A stretch of DNA of 64,000 bases. Source: Streptomyces sp. NBC_01381. Its GTDB lineage: Bacteria > Actinomycetota > Actinomycetes > Streptomycetales > Streptomycetaceae. A program made the position numbers and the translations under genes. Where the stretch lies: the NCBI RefSeq assembly GCF_026340305.1, contig NZ_JAPEPI010000001.1, positions 4,526,001 to 4,590,000 on the forward strand, in the 5' to 3' direction. This document shows, piece after piece, positions 15,600 through 61,776 of this stretch (position 1 is the first letter of the stretch; each line of letters opens with the position of its first letter). The notes below the pieces were generated by a model. The model was not told where the DNA came from and did no database searches. It saw only the letters and a program-made list of their open reading frames with translations.

Positions 15600-16589
15600 T
15601 CACGACGGCCGGCCCGTGGTGACCGCCCGCTCGGCGGAGTAGCCGCCCCATGCCCCGTCGGGAAGCCTGGCCCTGAGCTTCACGCGATGGCGCTCGCCGG
15701 GCTCCTTTCCCAGGTAGAAGCTGTGCGTGGCCTTGGTCCGGGGAGCCGTGCCGCCGAAGACCAGCGAGGTGGCGGCCTTGCCGTCCAGGTGGATCTGATA
15801 CTCGGACACGGCGCCGCCCGTGCGGGGCGGCGTCCACGACAGATCGATGTAGTACGCCCCGCCCGCGCGGTGCGTCGTCGCGCGGAAGCCGGTCGGTGCC
15901 GTACCCCGCCCGTCGTCCCGGCCGGGCGCGGTGGTGAGGCGCACGGCCCGGCTCGCGGACGAGAAGTTGTCCGCCGCGTCGCGCGCCTTGACGGTGAAGG
16001 TGTACGTGGTGCCCGGACGCAAGCCGGTGATCAGCGTGGTCCGCTCGCCGCGCTCCACGCTGTGGATCTTCGCCGTGCCCTGGTAGATCTCGTACGAGGC
16101 GACACCCTGGTCGTCCGAGGATGCGCCCCACGACAGGGTCACCGCCCTGCTGCCCTCGGCCGCGCCGCGCGGCGTGCCGGGACGGGACGGCGGCTCGTGG
16201 TCCGCGGCGGCCGCGCCGGGCGTGGTCACGGACAGCTTCTTGCTCGCCGGGCCGACGTTCCCCTCGGCGTCGCGCGCCCGGACGGTGAAGGCGTACGTCG
16301 TGGACGGCTGCAGGCCCGTGACATCCACCATGTGCTTGCCGCCCGGCACGCGCTCGACCCGGGTGGCGCCGCGGTACACGTCGTAGCCGGTGACCCCGGT
16401 GTCGTCCGTGGCCCGGTTCCACATGACGTGGGCGGTGGTGGCGCTGCCCGCCTGGACGGTGACGCCGCGCGGGGCGGCAGGGGGCGCCACGTCCTTCGAG
16501 TCGCTCGGGTCGTCCTGCCAGGCGCAGGAGCTGAGGGCGCAGACGGCGGTGACGGCGAGGAGCGCGGTCAGGTGGGGGGTCCGTCGCAT
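15600..16589 (-). CDS. Lipoprotein with three fibronectin type III domains
   Basis: 329 residues from ATG 16589, preceded by GGAAGG. The signal ends in the lipobox LSSC near residue 21, so the protein is tethered to the outer face of the membrane. Three FN3 modules follow, each with the conserved Trp/Tyr pattern: VMWNRATDDTGVTGYDVYRG, LSWGASSDDQGVASYEIYQG and LSWTPPRTGGAVSEYQIHLDG, the third being divergent. No catalytic domain is attached. FN3 repeats in actinobacteria usually accompany carbohydrate-active enzymes as spacers; here the divergent neighbour is a chitosanase, which may be coincidental. A substrate-binding or structural surface role is the best guess. Confidence 0.85.
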   Translation of the reverse strand: MRRTPHLTALLAVTAVCALSSCAWQDDPSDSKDVAPPAAPRGVTVQAGSATTAHVMWNRATDDTGVTGYDVYRGATRVERVPGGKHMVDVTGLQPSTTYAFTVRARDAEGNVGPASKKLSVTTPGAAAADHEPPSRPGTPRGAAEGSRAVTLSWGASSDDQGVASYEIYQGTAKIHSVERGERTTLITGLRPGTTYTFTVKARDAADNFSSASRAVRLTTAPGRDDGRGTAPTGFRATTHRAGGAYYIDLSWTPPRTGGAVSEYQIHLDGKAATSLVFGGTAPRTKATHSFYLGKEPGERHRVKLRARLPDGAWGGYSAERAVTTGRPS

Positions 16590-16760
16590 GGGTGTGCCTT
16601 CCACTGAGACTGGGACGGCATTGGTCCGGACCTATTGGACACAGTTGGCGGGGGTACATCAAGAGGCCCGCGTGCTCCGTCCGGACCCCGAGCGGTGGCC
16701 GGGACGTACGAGTCGGGACAGATTGGGACTTCCGCGTCCACTCAGGGAAGGTCTTTTCTC

Positions 16761-17516
16761 GTGCGTACCAGAACGGCGGCGCTCGCCGTCGCCGCCGGAG
16801 CCGCTCTGCTGGCCACCCCCGCTTCACTGCCCGCGACGGCGCAGGAGCAGGGCGAGCCGAACCCCAAGTCGGCGAATGTCAGGGAGAGTTCACCGGGAGG
16901 GGACGCGCCACGCCAGACCTTGGCGCGCGAAGGCTCCGCGAGCGCCGCCGCCCTGCTCGCCAGGGCCGGATCGTGCCGGCAGGTCTCCCGCGGCAAGTAC
17001 CGCAGCGACGACGGCGCCCCGGCGAACATCCCCGTCTGCGGCAAACGCGGCGCCGTGTTCTGGAAGGCCGACATGGACGTCGACTGCGACGGACGGCCCG
17101 GCAAGGCGTGCAACCGCCGCAGCGACCCCCTCTTCTTCCACGCCACCGCCTTCCAGCAGTCCGACGGCCGCCAGCTGGACGCCGAGCGCCTGCCGTACGT
17201 CGTCGTGCCGGGCGCGAGCCGCCGCTGGAACCACGCGGCGCACGGCGTCGACGGCGGTTCCGTCGCCGCCGTGATCCACCGGGGCAAGGTTCTGTACGCG
17301 GTGGTCGGCGACACCGGTCCCACCGACCTGATCGGCGAGGCGTCCTACGCGGCGGCCAGGGCGCTCGGCATCCGCGCCGACCCCAAGTCCGGCGGCGCGA
17401 GCGGCGACGTCACCTACATCGTCTTCAAGGGGCGCGGCGCGTCCCCGATCGAGAGCCACCGGGCCGCGGTCGCCCGTGGCGACGCGCTGGCCCGGCAGTT
17501 CCTCCGCCAGAACTGA
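16761..17516 (+). CDS. Secreted chitosanase, glycoside hydrolase family 75
   Basis: 251 residues from GTG 16761 behind AGGGAAGG. A signal peptide ends near residue 27 (LPATAQ), so the enzyme is exported. The mature part has the GH75 pattern: VFWKADMDVDCDG (residues 100-111) containing the presumed catalytic Asp, CNRRSDPLFFHATAFQQ, LPYVVVP, and VVGDTGPTDLIGEAS with the presumed catalytic Glu193. It would cut chitosan internally during fungal or insect polymer use. The next gene is convergent, so it is a single-gene transcript. The length fits the family. Confidence 0.88.
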   Translation: MRTRTAALAVAAGAALLATPASLPATAQEQGEPNPKSANVRESSPGGDAPRQTLAREGSASAAALLARAGSCRQVSRGKYRSDDGAPANIPVCGKRGAVFWKADMDVDCDGRPGKACNRRSDPLFFHATAFQQSDGRQLDAERLPYVVVPGASRRWNHAAHGVDGGSVAAVIHRGKVLYAVVGDTGPTDLIGEASYAAARALGIRADPKSGGASGDVTYIVFKGRGASPIESHRAAVARGDALARQFLRQN

Positions 17517-51404: not shown

Positions 51405-52190
51405 TCACTGATCGCGGCCCGGCACCACCATCACCTCGGTGCCGGCCGCGCGGATCGCGCGCACCTGCTCCGCCGCCAGGCCGTCGTCCACGATCAGCAG
51501 ATCGAAGTCGGTCAGTGGTGCAAGGGCGTACAGCCCGTCCTTGCAGAACTTGGTGTGGTCCGCGACCAGTACCCGGCGCGCGGCGCACTCCATCATCGCC
51601 CGCTTGACCTGCACCGTTTCCGGCGAGGTGTGATAGCAGCGGCCGTTGGTGACGGCCGTCGTGGACATGAACAGGACGTCGGCGCGAAAGGCGCGGACCG
51701 CGTCCGCGGTGTGCAGGCCCATGAACGCGTCGTACGCCGGGAAGTACGCGCCGCCCAGCGTGATCAGCGAGATGCCGGGTTCCTTCGCGAGCGTGGTGAC
51801 GGCGGGCAGCGAGTTGGTGATCACGGTCAGCGGGGTGTGCTCGGTGGCCTGGTGCGCAAGGAGCAGACAGGTCGTGCTGTCGTCGAGCAGTACCGTCTGG
51901 CCCGGCACGAGCAGTGTCGCGGCGGCCCGCGCGAGCAGCTGCTTGGTCTGCGCCATGGTGGCCATCCGCTCCGCGACGCTGCCGTGGAACTGCGCCGAAG
52001 GCAGCCCGGTCGCACCGCCCCGCACCTTGCGCAGCCAGCCCTGTGACTGAAGGGCGTCCAGATCGCGGTGCGCGGTCATCAGACTGACGCCGAACTCCTC
52101 GGCGAGGTCCGCCGTCCGCACGAAGCCACGACCGACGACGGCCTCCCGCATCTGCCGTCGCCGGTCTTCCTGGGCCTCGACCCGGTCCAT
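51405..52190 (-). CDS. DeoR/GlpR family sugar-operon repressor
   Basis: 261 residues from ATG 52190, GGAGGGAG seven bases upstream. The N-terminal helix-turn-helix (VRTADLAEEFGVSLMTAHRD, LDALQSQGWLRKVRGGATG) is DeoR type. The C-terminal sensor resembles ribose-5-phosphate isomerase folds: TVLLDDSTTCLLLAHQ, LTVITNSLPAVTTLA, ITLGGAYFPAYDAFMG, RRVLVADHTKFCKDGLYAL. Such domains sense phosphorylated sugars. It is divergent from the MFS/kinase operon and most likely represses it, with derepression by a sugar phosphate made by the kinases. Confidence 0.93.
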   Translation of the reverse strand: MDRVEAQEDRRRQMREAVVGRGFVRTADLAEEFGVSLMTAHRDLDALQSQGWLRKVRGGATGLPSAQFHGSVAERMATMAQTKQLLARAAATLLVPGQTVLLDDSTTCLLLAHQATEHTPLTVITNSLPAVTTLAKEPGISLITLGGAYFPAYDAFMGLHTADAVRAFRADVLFMSTTAVTNGRCYHTSPETVQVKRAMMECAARRVLVADHTKFCKDGLYALAPLTDFDLLIVDDGLAAEQVRAIRAAGTEVMVVPGRDQ

Positions 52191-52251
52191 CGCAGGGCTC
52201 CCTCCGGCGTCCGTGCCGTGTGCTGTGCGCGGCACGCGTGTGAACTCGCCG

Positions 52252-52275
52252 CGTTATGTTCGCACGGATTTAACG
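52252..52275. promoter_or_regulatory. Putative DeoR operator
   Basis: CGTTA and TAACG flank a 14-base spacer in an AT-richer island (rare in this DNA) between the divergent DeoR and transporter genes. A further inverted repeat GTGCCG-CGGCAC lies at 52213-52235. The location fits an operator for both directions. Confidence 0.45.
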
Positions 52276-52443
52276 TACCTCTGCCGAGGAGAGCGGCGTC
52301 GACGAGCGACTCCGGTACGACGCAACACGGCAGGTCGCCGCCCTGATGGGAAGATTCCGGCCGCCATTGACTCGCCTTTCAGGCCAGCTGTTCCATCAGC
52401 TCGTCCCTCCCTCCTGCCCCCGCCGCAGAAAGGGGAAGAGTCG

Positions 52444-53757
52444 ATGCCGACATCTTCGCCCCCTCCTCCGCGTCCGCTGATCACACGCCTGGGCATTCCA
52501 CCGACCCTCGCCTGGGGCTACCTCGGGCTGCTCCTCTTCATGATCGGAGACGGGGTCGAGTCCGGCTATCTCTCGCCGTACCTGATCGACGAGGGCATCT
52601 CGCAGCCCCGGGTCGCGCTCCTGTTCACCGTCTACGGCGCCGCCGCCGCCATCGCCGCCTGGCTCTCCGGAGTGCTGTCGGACCTGTGGGGCCCGCGCCG
52701 CGTCATGTGGACCGGTCTGGGCATCTGGGGCGTCTTCCAGCTCCTCTTCCTCGTCCTGGCCATCCCCATGACGAGCTATCCGCTGATGATGCTCGGGTAC
52801 GGCCTGCGGGGCCTGGGCTACCCGCTGTTCGCCTACGGATTCCTGGTCTGGATCGCCTCGGTGGCGCCGCGCGCCCGTCTCGGCACGGCCATGGGCTGGT
52901 TCTGGTTCGCCTTCACCGGCGGTCTGCCCACCCTCGGCTCGTTGGTCGCCAGCGGACTCATTCCGACGATCGGCGCGTACGCCACGCTGTGGTCCGCGCT
53001 GGCTCTGGTGGCCGCGGGCGGTCTCATCGCCCTGCTGCTCGTCCGTGACGACCGGGGCGGGAAGCAGCCGCGCGGCGAGGGCGAGGGGCCGCTCGCCACG
53101 CTCCTCGGCAGCGTCACGGTCCTGTGGCGCAATCCGCGGGTCGGCGCGGGATCGCTCGCCCGGGTCATCAACACGGCCTCGCAGTTCGGCTTCTTCGTGA
53201 TCATGCCGATCCACTTCACGAAGACGGTCGGCTTCAGCCTCACCGAGTGGCTGCATCTGCTCAGCGCGATGTTCGCGACCAACATCTTCGCCAATTTGCT
53301 CTTCGGCGTGATCGGCGACCGGTTCGGCTGGCGCCGGACCATCGCCTGGTTCGGCGGAGCCGGCTGCACGGTCAGCACGCTGCTGCTCTTCTACGTCCCG
53401 AACGCCGCGGGCGACAACTTCCCCCTCGCCCTGCTGGTCGCCGCCTTCTACGGCGCTACGCTGGCCGGATATGTACCGCTTTCTGCGCTTGTGCCCTCGC
53501 TGGAGCCGCGGCACAAGGGGCAGGCGCTCGCCGCGCTCAACCTGGGCGCCGGAGCCAGCACCTTCGTCGGCCCCGCGATCGTCACGGTCTTCGTCGGGCC
53601 GCTCGGCGTCACAGGGGTGGTCTGGATATTCGCGGGGATGCATGCGGTGAGCAGCGTGCTCGCACACTTCCTGAAGCTGCCGGACGAGGCGGGTGCGGCG
53701 GAGGCGGCCGGTGCCTCGCCGGACGCCGAGCCCGCCGCCGCATCGACCCCGGCGTGA
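52444..53757 (+). CDS. Major facilitator polyol/sugar transporter
   Basis: 437 residues from ATG 52444, GGGGAAGAG upstream. Twelve hydrophobic helices. An early SGVLSDLWGPRRVMWTGLGI is the MFS D-x-x-G-x-R loop motif, and LLFGVIGDRFGWRRTIAW is its second-half copy. The charged FMIGDGVESGYLSPYLIDEG in helix 1-2 resembles the RbtT/DalT polyol-permease subgroup. It is first of a five-gene operon with two kinases. Substrate is therefore likely a polyol or rare sugar phosphorylated on entry. The C-terminal Ala/Glu-rich tail looks disordered. Confidence 0.88.
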   Translation: MPTSSPPPPRPLITRLGIPPTLAWGYLGLLLFMIGDGVESGYLSPYLIDEGISQPRVALLFTVYGAAAAIAAWLSGVLSDLWGPRRVMWTGLGIWGVFQLLFLVLAIPMTSYPLMMLGYGLRGLGYPLFAYGFLVWIASVAPRARLGTAMGWFWFAFTGGLPTLGSLVASGLIPTIGAYATLWSALALVAAGGLIALLLVRDDRGGKQPRGEGEGPLATLLGSVTVLWRNPRVGAGSLARVINTASQFGFFVIMPIHFTKTVGFSLTEWLHLLSAMFATNIFANLLFGVIGDRFGWRRTIAWFGGAGCTVSTLLLFYVPNAAGDNFPLALLVAAFYGATLAGYVPLSALVPSLEPRHKGQALAALNLGAGASTFVGPAIVTVFVGPLGVTGVVWIFAGMHAVSSVLAHFLKLPDEAGAAEAAGASPDAEPAAASTPA

Positions 53758-53769
53758 AAGGTCCCACTG

Positions 53770-55332
53770 ATGTCCGTACTGACCATTGACGTCGGCACCA
53801 CGATGATCAAGTCGGTCGTCTTCGACGACCAGGGCAAGGAGATCGCGGTCTCCCGGCTCGCCACCGAAGTGCTTCGGCCCCACCCCGGCTGGGCGGAACA
53901 GGACATGGACGCCGTCTGGAACGCCGTCGTCCACACCGTCCGCGGTGTGCTGTCAGGTCTCGCCGACCCCGTCTGGCTGGTGTCCTTCACCGCCCAGGGC
54001 GACGGCGCCTGGCTCGTCGACGAGCGCGGCCGCCCCACCGGACCCGCCATCCTGTGGTCCGACGGCCGGGCCGGGGACCAGCTCACCGCCTGGCAGCGCG
54101 AGGGTGTCCTCGAAGCGGCCTTCCGCCGCAACGGCTCGCTGACCTGCGCCGGCATGCCCAACGCCCTCTTCAGCTGGCTCGCCGCCCACGACCCGGACCG
54201 CCTCGCGCGCTCAAGCACCTCGCTCACCGCCGCGGGCTGGCTCTTCCTGCGCCTCACCGGTGTCAGCGCCTGCGACGAATCCGACGCGTCCGCCCCGTTC
54301 CTCGACCACGCAACCGGCCAGTACGACCCGCGGATCCTCGACCTGTTCGGCCTGGGCGCCTACCACCGCCTCCTGCCAACCGTCCTCGGGGAGTCGGAGC
54401 GGATCGCCGAGATCACCGGCGAGGCGGCAGGCCAACTGGGGCTGCCCGCCGGTCTTCCGGTCGTGATGTCCCCGTACGACATCGCCGCCACCGCCCGCGG
54501 CGTCGGCGTGGTCAACCCCGGCCAGGCGTGCAGCATCCTCGGCACCACCCTGTGCACGGAGATCGTCCGCACGGACGTGGACACCAGCGGCGAACCGTCC
54601 GGCATCAACATCGCCTACCGCGGCCGCGAGCGGGTGCTGCGCGCATTCCCGACCCTCAACGGCGCCGAGGTGCTCGGCTGGGCGGCACAGATGCTGGGTC
54701 TTGCCGGACCGCCGGAACTGGCGCGGCTCGCCTTCGCATCGGAACCCGGCGCCCGCGGACTGCTGTTCCTGCCCTACCTCTCCCCGGCCGGCGAACGCGC
54801 GCCGTTCCTCGACCCGCGGGCCCGCGGCTCCTTCTGGGGCCTGTCCCTGGAGCACTCGCGCGCCGACCTGGCCCGCGCCGTGTTCGACGGGCTCTCACTG
54901 GTCCTGCGCGACTCGCTGGCCGCGGCCCGTACGCACGTGAGCGAGTTGCGGCTGTGCGGCGGCGGCGCCAACAGCGACGCGTGGTGCGCGCTGATCGCCG
55001 ACGCGACGGGTGTGCCGACCGCCCGCTCCGGCGACACCGAACTGGGCGCCAAGGGCGCCTTCCTCACCGGCCTCGTCCGCACCGGCGCCGAGAGCAGCAT
55101 GCATACCGCCGCCGCCAAGTACGTCCGGATGCAGAGCAGTTGGGAACCCGACCCGGAACGTGCGCAGTTCTACGCCGCCCTGTACGAAGACTTCATCGGC
55201 CGGCGGACGATCGCTCGCGAGGCCGGCTGGCGGGGCGGTGCGGTATGGCGGGGGAGCGGTGCCACAGGGCCGGGCGGCACCCCGCATGACGGCGACAGCA
55301 TCCCCACCACCCCAGGAGGCCTCCGTGCCTGA
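53770..55332 (+). CDS. FGGY-family carbohydrate kinase 1
   Basis: 520 residues from ATG 53770, 12 bases after the transporter gene. N-terminal MSVLTIDVGTTMIKSVVFDD is the first ATPase-phosphate motif. GPAILWSDGRAGDQL carries the usual catalytic aspartate, ACSILGTTLCTEIV, FLPYLSPAGERAPFLDP and LCGGGANSDAWCALIADATG with VPTARSGDTELGAKGAF complete the family pattern. It phosphorylates a polyol or ketose. The last 40 residues are low-complexity. Its end overlaps the next kinase start by eight bases, so the two kinases are made together. Confidence 0.9.
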   Translation: MSVLTIDVGTTMIKSVVFDDQGKEIAVSRLATEVLRPHPGWAEQDMDAVWNAVVHTVRGVLSGLADPVWLVSFTAQGDGAWLVDERGRPTGPAILWSDGRAGDQLTAWQREGVLEAAFRRNGSLTCAGMPNALFSWLAAHDPDRLARSSTSLTAAGWLFLRLTGVSACDESDASAPFLDHATGQYDPRILDLFGLGAYHRLLPTVLGESERIAEITGEAAGQLGLPAGLPVVMSPYDIAATARGVGVVNPGQACSILGTTLCTEIVRTDVDTSGEPSGINIAYRGRERVLRAFPTLNGAEVLGWAAQMLGLAGPPELARLAFASEPGARGLLFLPYLSPAGERAPFLDPRARGSFWGLSLEHSRADLARAVFDGLSLVLRDSLAAARTHVSELRLCGGGANSDAWCALIADATGVPTARSGDTELGAKGAFLTGLVRTGAESSMHTAAAKYVRMQSSWEPDPERAQFYAALYEDFIGRRTIAREAGWRGGAVWRGSGATGPGGTPHDGDSIPTTPGGLRA

Positions 55333-56833
55333 CGTCCCTTCCGCCGGCCACGCGCCCCTCGACGGCATCTGGCTGGGCCTCGACCTCGGCACCCAAAGTG
55401 CCCGCTGTGTGGCCGTCGACGGCACCGGCCGGCTCCTAGCCGCCGCCTCCCGTCCGCTGGCCGGCCACCGCGACGGCGTACGCCACGAGCAGGACCCCGA
55501 ACAGTGGTGGACCGCACTGTCCGCCGCCTGCCGCGAAGCCCTGGGCGGACTCGACGCCCGACGGATCCGCGGGCTCGCGATCGACGGCACCTCCGGGACG
55601 ATCCTGCTCGCCGACACCGCAGGCAGGCCGCTCACCCCCGGCCTGATGTACGACGACGGGCGCGCCGCCGACCAGGCGGCGACCGTCAACGAGGCCGGCG
55701 GGGCGGTCTGGCGGGAGCTCGGCTACCGCAGCATGCAGCCGTCCTGGGCGCTGCCGAAGCTGCGCTGGCTCCTGGACCATGAGGCCGCGGCGTCCGGCGC
55801 GGGCGTCCGGCTGCTGCACCAGGTCGACCTGATCACCTGGCGGCTTGCCGGACGTCAGGTCGCCTCCGACGCCAGTCATGCCCTCAAGACCGGCTACCAC
55901 CTGGTCGAGGAGGGCTGGCCGCACAAGGTCATGGCCGAACTGGGCGTCCCCGACGGCCTGTTGCCGGACGTCGTACGCCCCGGCAGCATCCTGGGAACCG
56001 TGTGCGCCGAGGCGGCGGCAGCCACCGGCATCCCCGAGGGCACCGCACTCGTCGCCGGAATGACCGACGGCTGCGCCGCCCAGATCGGCGCCGGAGCCCT
56101 GGAGCCCGGCTCCTGGAACTCGGTCCTCGGCACCACCCTCGTCCTCAAGGGCAGCAGCCCGCACCTGATCCGCGACCCGGCGGGCGTCGTGTACTGCCAC
56201 CGCGGACCGGGCGAGAGCTGGCTTCCGGGCGGCGCGTCCAGCAGCGGCGCCGGTGTCCTCTCCCAGCACTTCCACGGCGAGAACCTGGACCTGCTCACCG
56301 AGCAGGCCGCCGCGCTCGACCCGGACGCGGTCGCCTACCCCCTGGTCTCCACCGGCGGTGAACGCTTCCCCTTCCGCGCCCCCGAAGCCGAACCCTTCAT
56401 CCTCGGGCAAGTCCCCACCCGCGCGGCCGAGTTCCACGCCTATCTGCTCGGCGTGGCCTGCCTGGAACGGCTCTGCCTCGACTACCTCGACCACCTCGGC
56501 GCGCCCGTCGACGGACCGCTCACCCTCACCGGCGGCGGCGCCCGCAACCGCTACTGGTGCCGCCTGCGCGCCGAGGTCCTCGGGCGTCCCGTACGCCTGC
56601 CGGAACAGGCCGAGGGCGCCATCGGCATGGCGGTGCTCGCCGCCACCTCCTCCGGAGCCGGCCTCCAGGAGGCGGCCGCCGCCATGGTCGGGATCGGCGC
56701 GGAGATCCGCCCATCGCCGGACCGCACCGCCCGCTACCTCCCCGTCTACCTCCGCTTCATCGACGAACTCACCCGCCGTGGCTGGCTCGACCAGACCGTG
56801 GCCGACCACGCCCGCAGGAGGGCAGCGCAGTGA
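55325..56833 (+). CDS. FGGY-family carbohydrate kinase 2
   Basis: 502 residues from GTG 55325, after GGAGG of the previous gene's tail, overlapping by eight bases. WLGLDLGTQSARCVAVDGTG, GLMYDDGRAADQAAT, NSVLGTTLVLKGSS, and LTGGGARNRYWCRLRAEVLG with RPVRLPEQAEGAIGMAVLAA define an FGGY kinase, distinct enough from kinase 1 to have a different substrate. PLVSTGGERFPFRAPEAEPF is a surface loop in this subgroup. A tandem of two different FGGY kinases suggests two branches or two phosphorylation steps of one pathway. Confidence 0.9.
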   Translation: MPDVPSAGHAPLDGIWLGLDLGTQSARCVAVDGTGRLLAAASRPLAGHRDGVRHEQDPEQWWTALSAACREALGGLDARRIRGLAIDGTSGTILLADTAGRPLTPGLMYDDGRAADQAATVNEAGGAVWRELGYRSMQPSWALPKLRWLLDHEAAASGAGVRLLHQVDLITWRLAGRQVASDASHALKTGYHLVEEGWPHKVMAELGVPDGLLPDVVRPGSILGTVCAEAAAATGIPEGTALVAGMTDGCAAQIGAGALEPGSWNSVLGTTLVLKGSSPHLIRDPAGVVYCHRGPGESWLPGGASSSGAGVLSQHFHGENLDLLTEQAAALDPDAVAYPLVSTGGERFPFRAPEAEPFILGQVPTRAAEFHAYLLGVACLERLCLDYLDHLGAPVDGPLTLTGGGARNRYWCRLRAEVLGRPVRLPEQAEGAIGMAVLAATSSGAGLQEAAAAMVGIGAEIRPSPDRTARYLPVYLRFIDELTRRGWLDQTVADHARRRAAQ

Positions 56834-57456
56834 CCGACTTCATCCTCGTACGCCATGGCGAAACCGTCTGGCACGCGGAGAACCGCTACGCGGGACGCAC
56901 CGATGTGCCCCTCACCCCGCACGGACGCGAGCAGGCCGGCGCGCTCGCCGAGTGGGCCGTCACCGCAGGGCTCACGGCCGTCTGGAGCTCCCCGCTCTCC
57001 CGCGCCCGGCTCACCGCGGCCCCCGCCGCCGAGGCCTGCGGCCTCACCCCGCGCGTGGACGAGCGTCTCTACGAACTCGACTTCGGCCAAGGCGACGGTC
57101 TGACCAGGGAAGAGATGCGACAGCGCTTCCCCGAGCGGCTGGCGGCCTTCCTCGACGACCCGGTCGGCAACCATCTGCCCGGCGGCGAGGACCCGCGCAA
57201 GGCCGCCGCACGTGCCGCCGAGTGCCTGGCCGACATCGCCCGCGAAGAGCCGAACGGCAGGGTCCTCCTCGTCGCCCACTCCACCCTCGTCCGCGTCATG
57301 CTCTGCCACCTCCTCGGCATCCCGCTCGCCGACTACCGCAGGGTCTTCCCCCACTTGCTCAACGGCGCGCTCACGGAGATCCGCGTCGAGGACGGGCAGA
57401 CCGCACTGCTGCGTCTCAACGCCCCCGCGACGGACCAGACCCCCGACTTCCACTGA
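56830..57456 (+). CDS. Histidine phosphatase family protein
   Basis: 208 residues from GTG 56830, a GTGA overlap with kinase 2. The catalytic RHGE motif is LVRHGETVWHAENRYAGRTD, a second set of residues is SSPLSRARLTAAPAAEA, with acid ELDFGQGDGL and second His VLLVAHSTLVRVMLC. It is cofactor-independent phosphoglycerate mutase/phosphatase-like. In this operon it would remove phosphate from a kinase product or a dead-end sugar phosphate. A mutase role is unlikely without other glycolytic genes nearby. Confidence 0.92.
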   Translation: MTDFILVRHGETVWHAENRYAGRTDVPLTPHGREQAGALAEWAVTAGLTAVWSSPLSRARLTAAPAAEACGLTPRVDERLYELDFGQGDGLTREEMRQRFPERLAAFLDDPVGNHLPGGEDPRKAAARAAECLADIAREEPNGRVLLVAHSTLVRVMLCHLLGIPLADYRRVFPHLLNGALTEIRVEDGQTALLRLNAPATDQTPDFH

Positions 57457-57506
57457 TCCACGGACCGGCCACCCACCCGCACCGCTCTTCAGGAGACACC
57501 CGCCCA

Positions 57507-58550
57507 ATGAGCACCACCGTCCTCGCCGCAGGCAACCACTTCATCCGCCCGAGCCTGTTCACCCAGGCCGTGCGGGACGCCGCCGGGGAGCTGCCGCTGG
57601 ACGTCCGCGAGCTCCAGTTCCCCTGGCCGCACACCCCGTTCGGCCCGGTCGCCGAGGTCATCGAGGCATCCGGCAGCGAGGACGAGATGATCGAGGCGCT
57701 CCAGGGCGTACAGATCTGCGTCACCGAGCACGGCCCGCTCACCGAGCGCATCCTCGCCAACTGCCCTGACCTGAAGCTGTTCTGCACCAGCCGCGGCGGC
57801 CCGGTCAACGCCAACCTCGACGCCGCGACCCGGCATGGCGTGGCGGTCTGCTACGCCCCAGGACGCAACGCCACCGCCACCGCGGAACACACCCTCACCC
57901 TGCTGCTCGCCGCCGCCCGCGGCGTCGGCGACACCCACACCGACCTGCGCAAGGGCACCTGGCGCGGCGACTACTACGACTACGACAACTGCGGCATCGA
58001 GATCGACGGCGCCACCGTCGGCCTGATCGGCTACGGCGCCATCGGCAGCCGGGTCGCCAAGGTCCTGCGTGCCATGGGCGCCGAAGTCCTGGTGCACGAC
58101 CCCTACGTACGGCCCGATGCGCTGGCCGGTGTCGCGGAGCAGGTCTCCCTGGACGAGCTGCTCCGCCGCTCGCGCATGGTCTCCCTGCACGCCCGCGTCA
58201 CCGACGAGACCAAGGGCATGATCGGCCGCGCGCAGATCGCCGCGATGCCCCGCGGGTCGGTCCTGGTCAACTGCGCCCGCGGCGCGTTGCTCGACTACGA
58301 CGCCGTCTGCGACGCGCTCGACTCGGGTCACCTCGCCGGAGCGGGCTTCGACGTCTTCCCCGAGGAGCCGCTGCCCGCCGACTCCCGTCTCCTTACCGCC
58401 CCCGGTGTCGTCCTCACCCCGCACATCGCGGGCGGCAGCCAGCAGGTCGCGCACAAGGCGGCACACATCGTGGCCGCGGAGGTCGGCCGCCACCTGCGGG
58501 GTGAGCCGTTGGTGCACTGCGCCAACCCGGAGGTGTTCAAGGCGGGTTGA
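57507..58550 (+). CDS. D-isomer-specific 2-hydroxyacid dehydrogenase
   Basis: 347 residues from ATG 57507 behind AGGAGA. NAD-binding VGLIGYGAIGSRVAKVL; catalytic Arg in VNCARGALLDYDAVCDAL, Glu in FDVFPEEPLP and His in TPHIAGGSQQVAHK, the ordered triad of D-2-hydroxyacid/phosphoglycerate dehydrogenases. It lacks the C-terminal ACT domain of biosynthetic SerA (410 or more residues). With two kinases and a phosphatase it may oxidise a polyol-derived hydroxyacid or reduce a keto product. The substrate is unknown. Confidence 0.9.
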   Translation: MSTTVLAAGNHFIRPSLFTQAVRDAAGELPLDVRELQFPWPHTPFGPVAEVIEASGSEDEMIEALQGVQICVTEHGPLTERILANCPDLKLFCTSRGGPVNANLDAATRHGVAVCYAPGRNATATAEHTLTLLLAAARGVGDTHTDLRKGTWRGDYYDYDNCGIEIDGATVGLIGYGAIGSRVAKVLRAMGAEVLVHDPYVRPDALAGVAEQVSLDELLRRSRMVSLHARVTDETKGMIGRAQIAAMPRGSVLVNCARGALLDYDAVCDALDSGHLAGAGFDVFPEEPLPADSRLLTAPGVVLTPHIAGGSQQVAHKAAHIVAAEVGRHLRGEPLVHCANPEVFKAG

Positions 58551-58591: not shown

Positions 58592-59557
58592 ATGCGCGAG
58601 GCATCCTCATCGCCGGGACGGGGTCCAGGCGATGGCCCGGGGGACCCGGGACTCTTCGGGCCCACATCGGTGACCTGGCAGATGCACGGCGACCCGATGA
58701 TGTGGGTCGCCGGGGTGCGCGCCCTGTATCTGCAGGCCCTGCATCCGCGCGCGGTCCGTGGCGTCATGCAGAACTCGGACTTCCGCAAGGACGCCTGGGG
58801 CCGCCTCATGCGTACCGCGAACTTCGTCGGCACCATCACGTACGGCACCACCGAGGCGGCCGAGCATGCGGGCGCGCGGGTCCGCAAGATCCATACGATG
58901 CTCAAGGTCACCGACCCGGACACGGGGGAGCGGTACCGCGTCGACGAGCCCGAGCTGCTGCTCTGGGTGCACTGCGCGGAGATCGACTCCTATCTGCACG
59001 TCGCACGCCGGTCGGGGTTCCGGCTGACCGACGAGCTGGCCGACCGCTATGTTGCCGAGCACCGGGAGAGCGCGCGGCTCGTCGGGCTCGACCCCGCCGA
59101 CGTCCCCGCGACGACCGCCGAACTCGCCGCGTACTTCGAGCGCGTCAGGCCCGAGCTCGCCGCAGGACCCGAGGCGCGCGACGTCGACGACTTCCTCCAA
59201 CGACCGCCGACCCACCCGCTGTTGGTCCCGGCGCGCGCCCTGCTGTGGCGGCGGGTGGCGAACCTGGCGTACGCCTCGCTGCCTCCGTACGCCCACGAGC
59301 TGTACGGCAGAACGGCCCCGCCGCCGGCGACGGTGACCCGGCGACTCGTCACCACCGGCACCATCCTGCGCACCGTCCCCGCACGTCTACGCTGGCAACT
59401 TCCCCCCAAGCACATTCTGCGCGCCATGGCCCGGCTCGGGCCCGGCAGCCGCCCTGCCCCGTACAAACTCGACAGCCGGGCAGCCATACTGGACGGGCCG
59501 GGGAGGGCGCAGCGAGGCAACGGGGGCGACGGCACGAGATGGCGGACACCAGGCTGA
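58592..59557 (+). CDS. MpaB-type oxygenase (DUF2236)
   Basis: 321 residues from ATG 58592, preceded by GAGGAGG. The oxygenase signature is WQMHGDPMMWVAGVRALYLQ, ALHPRAVRGVMQNSDFRKDA, RLMRTANFVGTITYGT and LLLWVHCAEIDSYLHVA. Family members with known function (latex-clearing protein, MpaB) are haem-binding oxygenases; the conserved His here (LHPRAV) is a candidate ligand. No substrate can be inferred. Its stop is 19 bases inside the downstream kinase gene, so the two are tightly coupled. Confidence 0.82.
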   Translation: MREASSSPGRGPGDGPGDPGLFGPTSVTWQMHGDPMMWVAGVRALYLQALHPRAVRGVMQNSDFRKDAWGRLMRTANFVGTITYGTTEAAEHAGARVRKIHTMLKVTDPDTGERYRVDEPELLLWVHCAEIDSYLHVARRSGFRLTDELADRYVAEHRESARLVGLDPADVPATTAELAAYFERVRPELAAGPEARDVDDFLQRPPTHPLLVPARALLWRRVANLAYASLPPYAHELYGRTAPPPATVTRRLVTTGTILRTVPARLRWQLPPKHILRAMARLGPGSRPAPYKLDSRAAILDGPGRAQRGNGGDGTRWRTPG

Positions 59558-61776
59558 TCCAGGGCCGGTACCGGCTGCTCGATCTCATCGGGCGCGGCGG
59601 CATGGGCGAGGTGTGGCAGGCGCGCGACGAGTCGTTGGGGCGCAGAGTCGCCGTCAAGTGCCTCAAGCCCCTCGGGCCCCAGCACGACCAGTCCTTCACC
59701 CGGGTGCTGCGCGAGCGGTTCCGGCGCGAGGCCCGTGTCGCTGCGGCGCTGCAGCACAGAGGCGTCACCGTCGTCCATGACTTCGGGGAGCACGACGGCG
59801 TCCTCTATCTGGTCATGGAACTCCTGGAGGGGCGCAACCTCAGCCAGCTCCTGGAGGACAACAAACAGCATCCGCTGCCCGTCGCGGACGTCGTGGAGAT
59901 CGCCGACCAGGTCGCCGCCGCGCTCGCGTACACCCATGAACAGGGCATCGTGCACCGCGACCTGAAGCCCGCCAACATCATGCGCCTCACCGACGGCACG
60001 GTGAAGATCTGCGACTTCGGGATCGCCAGGCTCGGCGCCGACATCGGCTTCACCTCGCGCCTGACCGGCACGGGCATCGCGATGGGCACCCCGCACTACA
60101 TGTCGCCCGAGCAGATCAGCGGCGCCCAGGTCGACCAGCGCAGCGACCTCTACTCTTTCGGATGCGTCCTGTACGAGATCGCCACCGGCGCCCCGCCGTT
60201 CGACCTGGAGGACGCCTGGGCGGTCCTCGTCGGGCACCGGGACACTCAGCCCGAGCCGCCGCGCAGCCACCGCGACGAACTTCCCGAGTACTTCGACAAG
60301 ATCGTCCTCGACCTGCTCGCCAAGGAGCCCGACGGACGCCCGCGGGACGCACGGGAGCTGGGCCGCCGCATCACCGCGGGCCGCACCGTCCCCACGTACG
60401 TACCGACGGTCGTCACCCCGCCCGTGCACCGGCCCGAGCAGCCGCCCTCGCGCGAGCCGCGGCTGCCGTCCTGGACGCGCGGCATGACGACGGGCCACAA
60501 GGCGAACGGCGCATCCGAGCTGCGCACCACGCCGCCCGACGCGGCGGCCGGCCTGACCGGCGAGTGGATCCCGCGCGCCGACGCGCGCCGGGCCGCCGCG
60601 CCGCACCGGCCCGAACGGCCCACGCCGCCCCCGGAGTTGGTGGCCACCCTCACCAGCAGGCACAACGCGGGCCTGAGCCTGGGGCGGCTCGGCCGCTGGG
60701 CCGAGGCCGGCGAGGTCCACCGCGCGGTCGCGGCCGAGCGGGAGCACGCCCTTGGCCCCGACCACCCCGACACGCTCGCCAGCCGCTACGAAGTCGGCTT
60801 CACGCTCAGCCGCACCGGGCGGGCCGCCGACGCCCTGCGCGAGTACGGCCGCGTCGCGCAGGGCCGGGAGCGCACCCTCGGCCCCGACCATCCGGACACG
60901 CTCGCCGCACGGCAGGAAATGGCGTACGTGATGGGGCAGTTGGGGCGGCACTTCGAGGCGCACCAGCTGTACACATCCGTGCTTGCCGTACGGGAGCGGA
61001 CCGCGGGCCCCGACCATCCCGACACCCTGCGCTGCCGGCACAACCTGGCGTACAACCTCAGCAGACTCGGCCGCCTGGAGGACTCCTACCGTCTTGCCCG
61101 GCAGGTCGCGACGGCCCGCGCGCGCGTCCTCGGCGAGACACACCCCGACACGCTCGTCACCCGCTACGAAGTCGCTTACGCCCTCGGCCAGTTGGGCCGC
61201 TGGCCCGAGGCCCTCCAGACGTACCGCGAGGTCGCCGACGTGCGGGTGCGGGCTCTTGGCGCCGACCACCCCGACACGCTCGCCGCCCGCTACGAGGTGG
61301 GGATCAGCCTCGGCCGCCTCGGTCGCAGCGGGGAGGCCCTCGAGCTGTACCGCGACCTGATCGACGACCGCACCCGGGTGAACGGCCCCTCCGACCCGGA
61401 GACCCTGCGCGCCCGGCACGGCCTCGGCGTGAACCTGGGCCGGCAGGGCCGCTGGGAGGAGGCCCTGGCCGAGGCGCGCGACGTCTGCGCGATCCGTGAG
61501 CGGATCCTCGGCGGCGACCACCCGGACACCCTGGTCAGCCGCCGCGAGGTCGCCGTGGGCCTGGGCTGGCTCGGCCGCTGGGCCGACGCGCTGACCGAGT
61601 ACCGCAGGGTCGCTGCCGCGCGGGAGCAGGTGCTTGGCGGTGACCATCCTGATGCGCTGGCCAGTCGTAATGACGAGGCGCACTGTCTTGAGCAGTTGGG
61701 GCGTGGGACGGAGGCGGTGGAGTTGTACCGCAGGGTCGCTGCTTTGCGGCAGCAGCGGGCTTCTGGGGGGCATTGA
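59539..61776 (+). CDS. Ser/Thr protein kinase with TPR array
   Basis: 745 residues from ATG 59539. Kinase domain: Gly loop IGRGGMGEVWQARD (17-30), Lys40 in VAVKCLK, GVLYLVMELLEGRNLSQLL, HRD in GIVHRDLKPANIMRLTDGTV (near 139), KICDFGIARLG, APE-equivalent GTPHYMSPEQISG and DLYSFGCVLYEIATGAPPF. After a Pro-rich linker (about 290-360) come ten or so TPR repeats of 42 residues with ALGPDHPDTL, LGRWAEA-type spacers. No transmembrane helix is seen, so it is a cytosolic PknB-like kinase with a scaffold. The MpaB gene overlaps its start. Confidence 0.94.
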   Translation: MADTRLIQGRYRLLDLIGRGGMGEVWQARDESLGRRVAVKCLKPLGPQHDQSFTRVLRERFRREARVAAALQHRGVTVVHDFGEHDGVLYLVMELLEGRNLSQLLEDNKQHPLPVADVVEIADQVAAALAYTHEQGIVHRDLKPANIMRLTDGTVKICDFGIARLGADIGFTSRLTGTGIAMGTPHYMSPEQISGAQVDQRSDLYSFGCVLYEIATGAPPFDLEDAWAVLVGHRDTQPEPPRSHRDELPEYFDKIVLDLLAKEPDGRPRDARELGRRITAGRTVPTYVPTVVTPPVHRPEQPPSREPRLPSWTRGMTTGHKANGASELRTTPPDAAAGLTGEWIPRADARRAAAPHRPERPTPPPELVATLTSRHNAGLSLGRLGRWAEAGEVHRAVAAEREHALGPDHPDTLASRYEVGFTLSRTGRAADALREYGRVAQGRERTLGPDHPDTLAARQEMAYVMGQLGRHFEAHQLYTSVLAVRERTAGPDHPDTLRCRHNLAYNLSRLGRLEDSYRLARQVATARARVLGETHPDTLVTRYEVAYALGQLGRWPEALQTYREVADVRVRALGADHPDTLAARYEVGISLGRLGRSGEALELYRDLIDDRTRVNGPSDPETLRARHGLGVNLGRQGRWEEALAEARDVCAIRERILGGDHPDTLVSRREVAVGLGWLGRWADALTEYRRVAAAREQVLGGDHPDALASRNDEAHCLEQLGRGTEAVELYRRVAALRQQRASGGH

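Follow-up and report, generated by a model that had tools for sequence, protein, structure and literature searches.

The 64,000-nucleotide stretch of Streptomyces sp. NBC_01381 DNA analysed here (the window; contig NZ_JAPEPI010000001.1, positions 4,526,001 to 4,590,000) contains an operon in which genes for two different FGGY kinases, a histidine phosphatase and a protein with the D-2-hydroxyacid dehydrogenase (D2HDH) fold follow a transporter gene. We find that this gene set is a conserved cassette and not a random assortment, and we lean slightly toward the view that it is a self-contained pentitol catabolic cassette, most likely for ribitol or D-arabitol, that works by a kinase/dehydrogenase/phosphatase/kinase route. 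The original prediction for this DNA had described a polyol-type operon, and the recurrence of the cassette, its RbtT-type transporter and its kinship to a rhizobial polyol locus agree with that description. Seeing the genes as a conserved polyol cassette largely resolves the puzzle that the prediction had raised over two kinases and a phosphatase.

All the genes named in the prediction are present in the order given, with the divergent regulator gene deoR falling just outside the predicted start at 52252. On the plus strand, the gene for a transporter of the major facilitator superfamily (MFS; 52444-53757) belongs to the RbtT/DalT/CsbX (ribitol/D-arabitol) family, scoring 560.4 bits with TIGR00897 against a curated cut-off of 375. 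It is followed by the kinase genes kin1 (53770-55332; PF00370/PF02782) and kin2 (55325-56833), which overlap by 8 bp and whose products gave 170.7 and 118.1 bits with the Pfam domain FGGY_N (cut-off 28.8). The phosphatase gene hisP (56830-57456), which overlaps kin2 by 4 bp, encodes a branch 1 histidine phosphatase (PF00300, 196 bits versus 21.7), and the D2HDH gene (57507-58550; PF02826/PF00389) gave 191.5 bits with the Pfam domain 2-Hacid_dh_C (cut-off 25.1). All NCBIfam scores of the kinases, the phosphatase and D2HDH were under cut-off, leaving these proteins without an equivalog assignment. As predicted, no isomerase or epimerase was seen among the cassette genes by gene calls and domain search, nor was a further dehydrogenase; the list of open reading frames, Pfam and the gene calls revealed no ribitol 2-dehydrogenase gene in the cassette, which also has neither a DAK kinase nor an RpiB isomerase. 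We concur that no textbook route for ribitol, arabitol or xylulose needs this set of genes.

From these genes we infer a substrate, an order of steps and a reaction for D2HDH. The RbtT-type transporter would import the polyol, and kin1 would phosphorylate a pentitol at one end to a pentitol phosphate. D2HDH, using NAD+, would then oxidise the carbon adjoining the phosphate to give a ketose 1-phosphate (D-ribulose 1-phosphate), which would not be usable by the pentose phosphate pathway; hisP would strip the phosphate to release D-ribulose, and kin2 would phosphorylate the free D-ribulose at C5, producing D-ribulose 5-phosphate for the pentose phosphate pathway. Because the route would yield D-ribulose 5-phosphate, no isomerase or epimerase would be needed, and a phosphatase would have its place provided that oxidation beside the phosphate yields a ketose 1-phosphate. 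A pentitol is the suggested substrate because the RbtT-type transporter and kin2 both point to one. DeoR would control the operon from the divergent promoter.

Recurrence of the gene set

A search with kin2 (threshold E <= 1e-40) of 100 relatives and 296 genomes of the phylum gave matches in 25 and 39 of them, respectively. In regions of up to 18 kb taken round 40 kin2 matches, kin1, kin2, hisP, D2HDH and deoR were often grouped, and transporters were interchangeable among the cassettes: an RbtT-like MFS protein, a malto-type ATP-binding cassette (ABC) transporter or a ribose-type ABC transporter. A second set was anchored on D2HDH by scanning named genomes with a D2HDH alignment. It consisted of the best 80 of at least 517 confirmed loci, of which 71 were kept as intact, 9 being dropped because D2HDH had under 7 kb of flank on the left or under 5 kb on the right. 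These 80 loci came chiefly from Actinomycetota, with two Verrucomicrobiota bins (L142 and L195), and the named cassettes nearest to that of the window among the best 80 of at least 517 were those of Streptomyces strains (L147, L154 and L155; ~88-97% protein identity). In the 22 of the 80 loci where a script with a score limit placed all four genes on one strand, the order kin1-kin2-hisP-D2HDH was constant (22/22). One Rubrobacteraceae cassette (L094, 7059-15758) holds additional genes for a third FGGY kinase, a zinc alcohol dehydrogenase and two members of the class II aldolase family.

A phosphatase was present in all 71 intact loci, a second kinase in 70 (the exception being L189) and kin1 in 68 (no match in L133, L146 or L189). 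By type, kin2 was found in 64, a DAK kinase in 10, hisP in 66, a HAD phosphatase in 11, RpiB in 11, a FucA-type aldolase in 8, a second aldolase type in 7 and EryB in 4. Phosphatase and second kinase were paired: hisP accompanied kin2 in 64/64 loci, and in a sister version of the cassette all ten DAK loci carried both a HAD phosphatase (10/10) and an RpiB-like isomerase (10/10). All four loci with both second kinases had both phosphatases, and one HAD locus (L199) had kin2 and hisP without DAK. The 9.87-Mb genome contains 13 His_Phos_1 matches, so that the chance of finding one in a given 18 kb is about 2%.

The original prediction had named, as part of what would count against it, the presence of the missing steps next to the operon in related genomes, and this is partly borne out. 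Class II aldolases, GlpD/EryB-like dehydrogenases, or DAK, HAD and RpiB together, do occur in some relatives, but in 56 of the 71 intact loci none of the queried aldolase, RpiB or EryB types accompanies kin2, hisP and D2HDH. The short gene set therefore seems to be enough, and in those 56 loci D2HDH is the only recurrent redox candidate.

Controls were anchored on other genes. When 36 of the 40 kin2 loci were kept (4 were dropped because kin2 lay less than 5 kb from an end), hisP was found in 22/22 loci with kin1 and D2HDH, in 2/2 with one of them and in 3/12 with neither; two of these last three (L074 and L076) resemble remnants. A Fisher test of 22/22 versus 3/12 gave p ~4e-6, a value that ignores kinship and serves as a guide only. 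Among 40 regions taken from 53 kin1 matches, 34 contained D2HDH: 22 with kin2 and hisP, 5 with DAK, HAD and RpiB, 1 with both sets, 5 in which kin2 was cut by the region end, and 1 (L274) without a second kinase. The apparent absence of hisP from five kin1-anchored loci corresponds to a kin2 gene cut at the end of the region. The six regions without D2HDH were four weak FGGY matches (30-36%) outside any cassette, together with L256 and L260. In L260, which has a deoR-HAD-kin1-EryB run plus hisP-kin2 and no D2HDH, the EryB-like dehydrogenase directly follows kin1; this is one natural exchange of D2HDH for a polyol-phosphate dehydrogenase of a kind already known. The idea that EryB generally takes the place of D2HDH was rejected, since an EryB-anchored search of 250 genomes gave chiefly GlpD-like matches at ~50%; the six regions examined from that search included one cassette (L292), which carries both EryB and D2HDH.

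Kinases, phosphatase and dehydrogenase

The best NCBIfam model for both kinases was XylB (TIGR01312), with 248.3 bits for kin1 and 184.6 for kin2 against a cut-off of 380.25 that neither reached. Xylulokinase, ribulokinase (AraB), gluconokinase and autoinducer-2 (AI-2) kinase were rejected as exact identities, all being under their NCBIfam cut-offs. In a tree of 31 sequences, kin1 and its actinobacterial relatives formed one clade (100/97) apart from E. coli XylB, LyxK, GlpK and LsrK, and kin2 fell in one clade with rhizobial kinases at the RbtB position (100/98). The two kinases lie in separate FGGY clades, in line with the two different FGGY kinases of the original prediction. We propose that kin1 is an EryA-like pentitol kinase and that kin2 is an RbtB/SePSK-like D-ribulose 5-kinase. 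The nearest solved structures to kin2 are AtXK-1 (5htr) and the D-ribulose kinase SePSK (5htn), and kin2 residues D20, T23 and D248 align with D8, T11 and D221 of SePSK, so that three catalytic residues are held in common. In the excerpted text of PMC4880283, these SePSK residues are important, the enzyme acts on free D-ribulose, and the physiological role of SePSK and AtXK-1 is given as unknown. A Paracoccaceae plasmid (L209, 4503-17289) carries two tandem FGGY kinases (36% and 34% identical to kin1) and a HAD phosphatase in a cluster that also has split transketolase, lactonase and glycerol-dehydrogenase-like genes.

For hisP, a candidate ketose 1-phosphate phosphatase, the nearest NCBIfam models are phosphatases (CobC, 131.5 bits; PspA, 107.6), which scored above phosphoglycerate mutases, and its translation shows LVRHGE, containing the RHGE motif.

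The product of the D2HDH gene, which we propose to be an NAD-dependent pentitol-phosphate dehydrogenase, gave an AlphaFold2 model with a predicted local distance difference test score (pLDDT) of 94.1, and its nearest solved structures are D2HDHs, phosphoglycerate dehydrogenases and hydroxypyruvate reductases. Over the aligned parts it is 36% identical to E. coli SerA, 30% to GhrB and 25% to PdxB, and with the phosphoglycerate dehydrogenase model TIGR01327 it scored 224.2, not reaching the curated 454. R258, E287, H306 and the RGGP.N motif are invariant in the clade (22 aligned sequences), and both the fold and the Arg/Glu/His set place the protein in the superfamily. An Arg like that with which phosphoglycerate dehydrogenases bind phosphate was considered and dropped, the Arg of RGGPVN lying two columns off that of the RAG motif of those enzymes. 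The superfamily permits phosphorylated substrates, yet it also points to a carboxylate, which keeps a sugar-acid alternative alive.

Relatives of this dehydrogenase also occur in other settings. A Halarchaeum sp. plasmid (L207, 5238-9906) has an archaeal set made up of glpR, a class II fructose-bisphosphate aldolase, an FGGY kinase and a D2HDH 38% identical to that of the window. In L114 (8959-13811) and L115 (8992-13755), a single run of genes joins D2HDH, a FucA-type aldolase and an FGGY kinase to CoA-transferases, a molybdopterin oxidoreductase and an acetolactate-synthase-like enzyme.

Relation to known polyol systems

On Sinorhizobium and Shinella plasmids, D2HDH relatives (~45%) adjoin an FGGY kinase and a class II aldolase. 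The locus on pSymB of S. meliloti Ak57 runs from an ABC transporter through a kinase, D2HDH, FucA, a GlpD-like EryB and a class II aldolase-like protein to a kin2 relative, a split HAD gene, an isomerase, DeoR, TpiB and RpiB. Compared with the window, its D2HDH is 44.7% identical over 338 amino acids, its kin2 relative 37.7% over 424 amino acids and its kin1 counterpart 32%; this last kinase is EryA, being 54.9% identical to the one encoded in the ery-type locus of pRL12. In the Ak57 record (L116), the HAD at the RbtC position (16257-17101) is split into two overlapping frames by a mutation or a sequencing error. According to the sections of PMC3599248 that deal with these genes, S. meliloti uses eryA and mptABCDE for erythritol, adonitol and L-arabitol, lalA-rbtABC have a part in adonitol and L-arabitol use and none in that of erythritol, and fucA is dispensable. 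The likeness to the window lies in relatives of kin1 (EryA), D2HDH and kin2 found together, with a phosphatase beside kin2, in a locus whose polyol genetics covers two pentitols. The window differs in having a histidine phosphatase for the HAD and an MFS for the ABC transporter, and it is without FucA, EryC, TpiB and RpiB; EryB, LalA and MptABCDE were likewise not found among the genes called around its cassette. The cassette may work like the rhizobial pentitol genes but is not a member of that locus type, for which EryB, LalA, HAD and Mpt are missing.

FucA-type aldolases act on ketose 1-phosphates, and their presence in some relatives therefore fits a ketose 1-phosphate intermediate, as does the score of 185 bits (cut-off 300) that S. 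meliloti FucA gave with a ribulose-1-phosphate aldolase model. FucA was rejected as an obligate partner, being in only 8 of the 71 intact loci and dispensable in S. meliloti as reported in those sections of PMC3599248. In Shinella and Aminobacter, the kin2 relative is flanked on one side by a class II aldolase-family gene and on the other by a HAD phosphatase gene (TIGR01459), which makes the HAD beside alphaproteobacterial kin2 relatives a third phosphatase type.

The rbt operon of Klebsiella and E. coli resembles the cassette in its RbtT-type transporter and its D-ribulose kinase-like enzyme; we know of no phosphatase in that operon. The tetritol routes of Mycobacterium smegmatis and Brucella (EltD/LerK/LerI/DerI; EryABC plus isomerases) share with the sister clusters a DAK kinase and an RpiB-like isomerase, and have an EryA-like first kinase, whereas the window has neither DAK nor RpiB and the excerpted texts on these routes name no phosphatase step (PMC10733421, PMC12780249). 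Steps through D-erythrulose 4-phosphate, which is isomerised to erythrose 4-phosphate, are already known, as described in part of PMC10733421, and the DAK/HAD/RpiB version would do for tetritols what the proposed route does for pentitols. The four-carbon substrate suggested in the original prediction fits the sister DAK/RpiB clusters better than the window, whose transporter is a ribitol/arabitol-type one and whose kin2 has AtXK-1 and a D-ribulose kinase as its nearest solved structures.

We put forward tentatively, as a possibility somewhat short of even, that polyols are handled by a general strategy of phosphate swapping. In it, an EryA-like kinase together with a polyol-phosphate dehydrogenase of the D2HDH family would produce a ketose 1-phosphate, and a phosphatase/kinase pair matched to chain length (hisP and ribulokinase for C5; HAD and DAK with RpiB for C4) would shift the phosphate to the opposite end of the molecule, in place of the isomerases found in Brucella or the dehydrogenases with which enteric bacteria act on free polyols. 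If true, a polyol-phosphate dehydrogenase would be a new reaction class for the large D2HDH superfamily. The proposal offers a testable role for four genes, now generically named, that recur in Streptomyces, Nonomuraea, Amycolatopsis, Rubrobacter and other genomes, and the cassette may explain the roles of D2HDH, the FGGY kinase and the phosphatase in the rhizobial pentitol locus. Searches of the open-licence literature for this gene combination found no description of the cassette.

Competing explanations and the regulator

Several observations weigh against a pentitol route through D2HDH. To our knowledge, no polyol-phosphate dehydrogenase of the D2HDH family is known, and the protein retains the Arg/Glu/His residues whose usual task is to handle a 2-hydroxy acid. 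The kin1 clade stands beside EryA at 90/78, under the firm-support mark of the tool, with 32% identity between kin1 and EryA, and the deeper order of the kinase tree is unsure because the E. coli reference branches are long. The locus counts are not independent, the loci being mutually related. One locus (L189) has D2HDH and hisP without either kinase, and another (L256) has kin1, kin2 and hisP with neither D2HDH nor EryB. The clean swap of EryB for D2HDH is a single case, and the two dehydrogenases co-occur in 4 of the 71 intact loci, in L292, in Sinorhizobium and in Gemmobacter, so that D2HDH may have another role in those loci. Finally, it is from the order of gene names as given in part of PMC3599248 that RbtA would correspond to D2HDH, RbtB to the kin2 relative and RbtC to the HAD.

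The conserved Arg/Glu/His set, together with the nearness of D2HDH in sequence and fold to phosphoglycerate dehydrogenases and hydroxypyruvate reductases, speaks for a sugar-acid route, in which kin1 would phosphorylate an aldonate, D2HDH would oxidise a phosphorylated 2-hydroxy acid in the manner of phosphoglycerate or erythronate-4-phosphate dehydrogenases, and hisP and kin2 would perform later steps. We consider this unlikely, given an RbtT-type transporter, a kin2 that resembles D-ribulose kinase, three genes akin to a genetically studied polyol locus, and the lack of an aldolase of the queried types in most loci. An ordinary pentitol route with its polyol dehydrogenase encoded elsewhere appears equally unlikely. 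There kin1 would act on D-xylulose and kin2 on D-ribulose, leaving side functions to hisP and D2HDH. XylB is indeed the best NCBIfam match for both kinases, but its cut-off is reached by neither, hisP and D2HDH are conserved as much as the kinases, and no recurrent polyol dehydrogenase of the short-chain or medium-chain dehydrogenase/reductase families (SDR/MDR) was present among the neighbour clusters examined.

The original prediction had also raised the repair of damaged metabolites. In a polyol operon, hisP might clear dead-end phosphates that a promiscuous kinase leaves behind, and D2HDH might dispose of a by-product that is a reactive carbonyl or an acid; the finding that any of three phosphatase families suffices would fit such clean-up too. 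This can still be envisaged but is superfluous, and we regard it as improbable: a phosphatase in 71/71 intact loci, one-to-one with the second kinase, shows a regularity beyond what an accessory repair gene would lead one to expect, and the conservation of the phosphatase, equal to that of the kinases, suits an obligatory step. Since the step sequence cannot be told from gene content, kin2 might instead make ribulose 1,5-bisphosphate from ribulose 1-phosphate before hisP removes the C1 phosphate. We think this order very improbable, because the characterised enzyme SePSK, to which kin2 is closely related, uses free D-ribulose in the excerpted account (PMC4880283).

The gene deoR (51405-52235, minus strand), divergent from the operon, encodes a DeoR-family regulator (PF00455, 151.1 bits versus a cut-off of 31.8; PF08220, 46.2 versus 21) and was present in 44 of the 71 intact loci. 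The gene caller gave a later start, near 52151, as an alternative. An alignment of 16 intergenic regions between deoR and the MFS gene revealed a conserved block at 52239-52275 with GTGAA...TTCAC-like arms, which is probably the DeoR operator. As an orthologue of EryR, DeoR was rejected, another rhizobial DeoR matching better (207 versus 188 bits). Elsewhere in the window, at 59539-61776, the list of open reading frames contains a long frame whose product looks like a Ser/Thr protein kinase with repeats after it.

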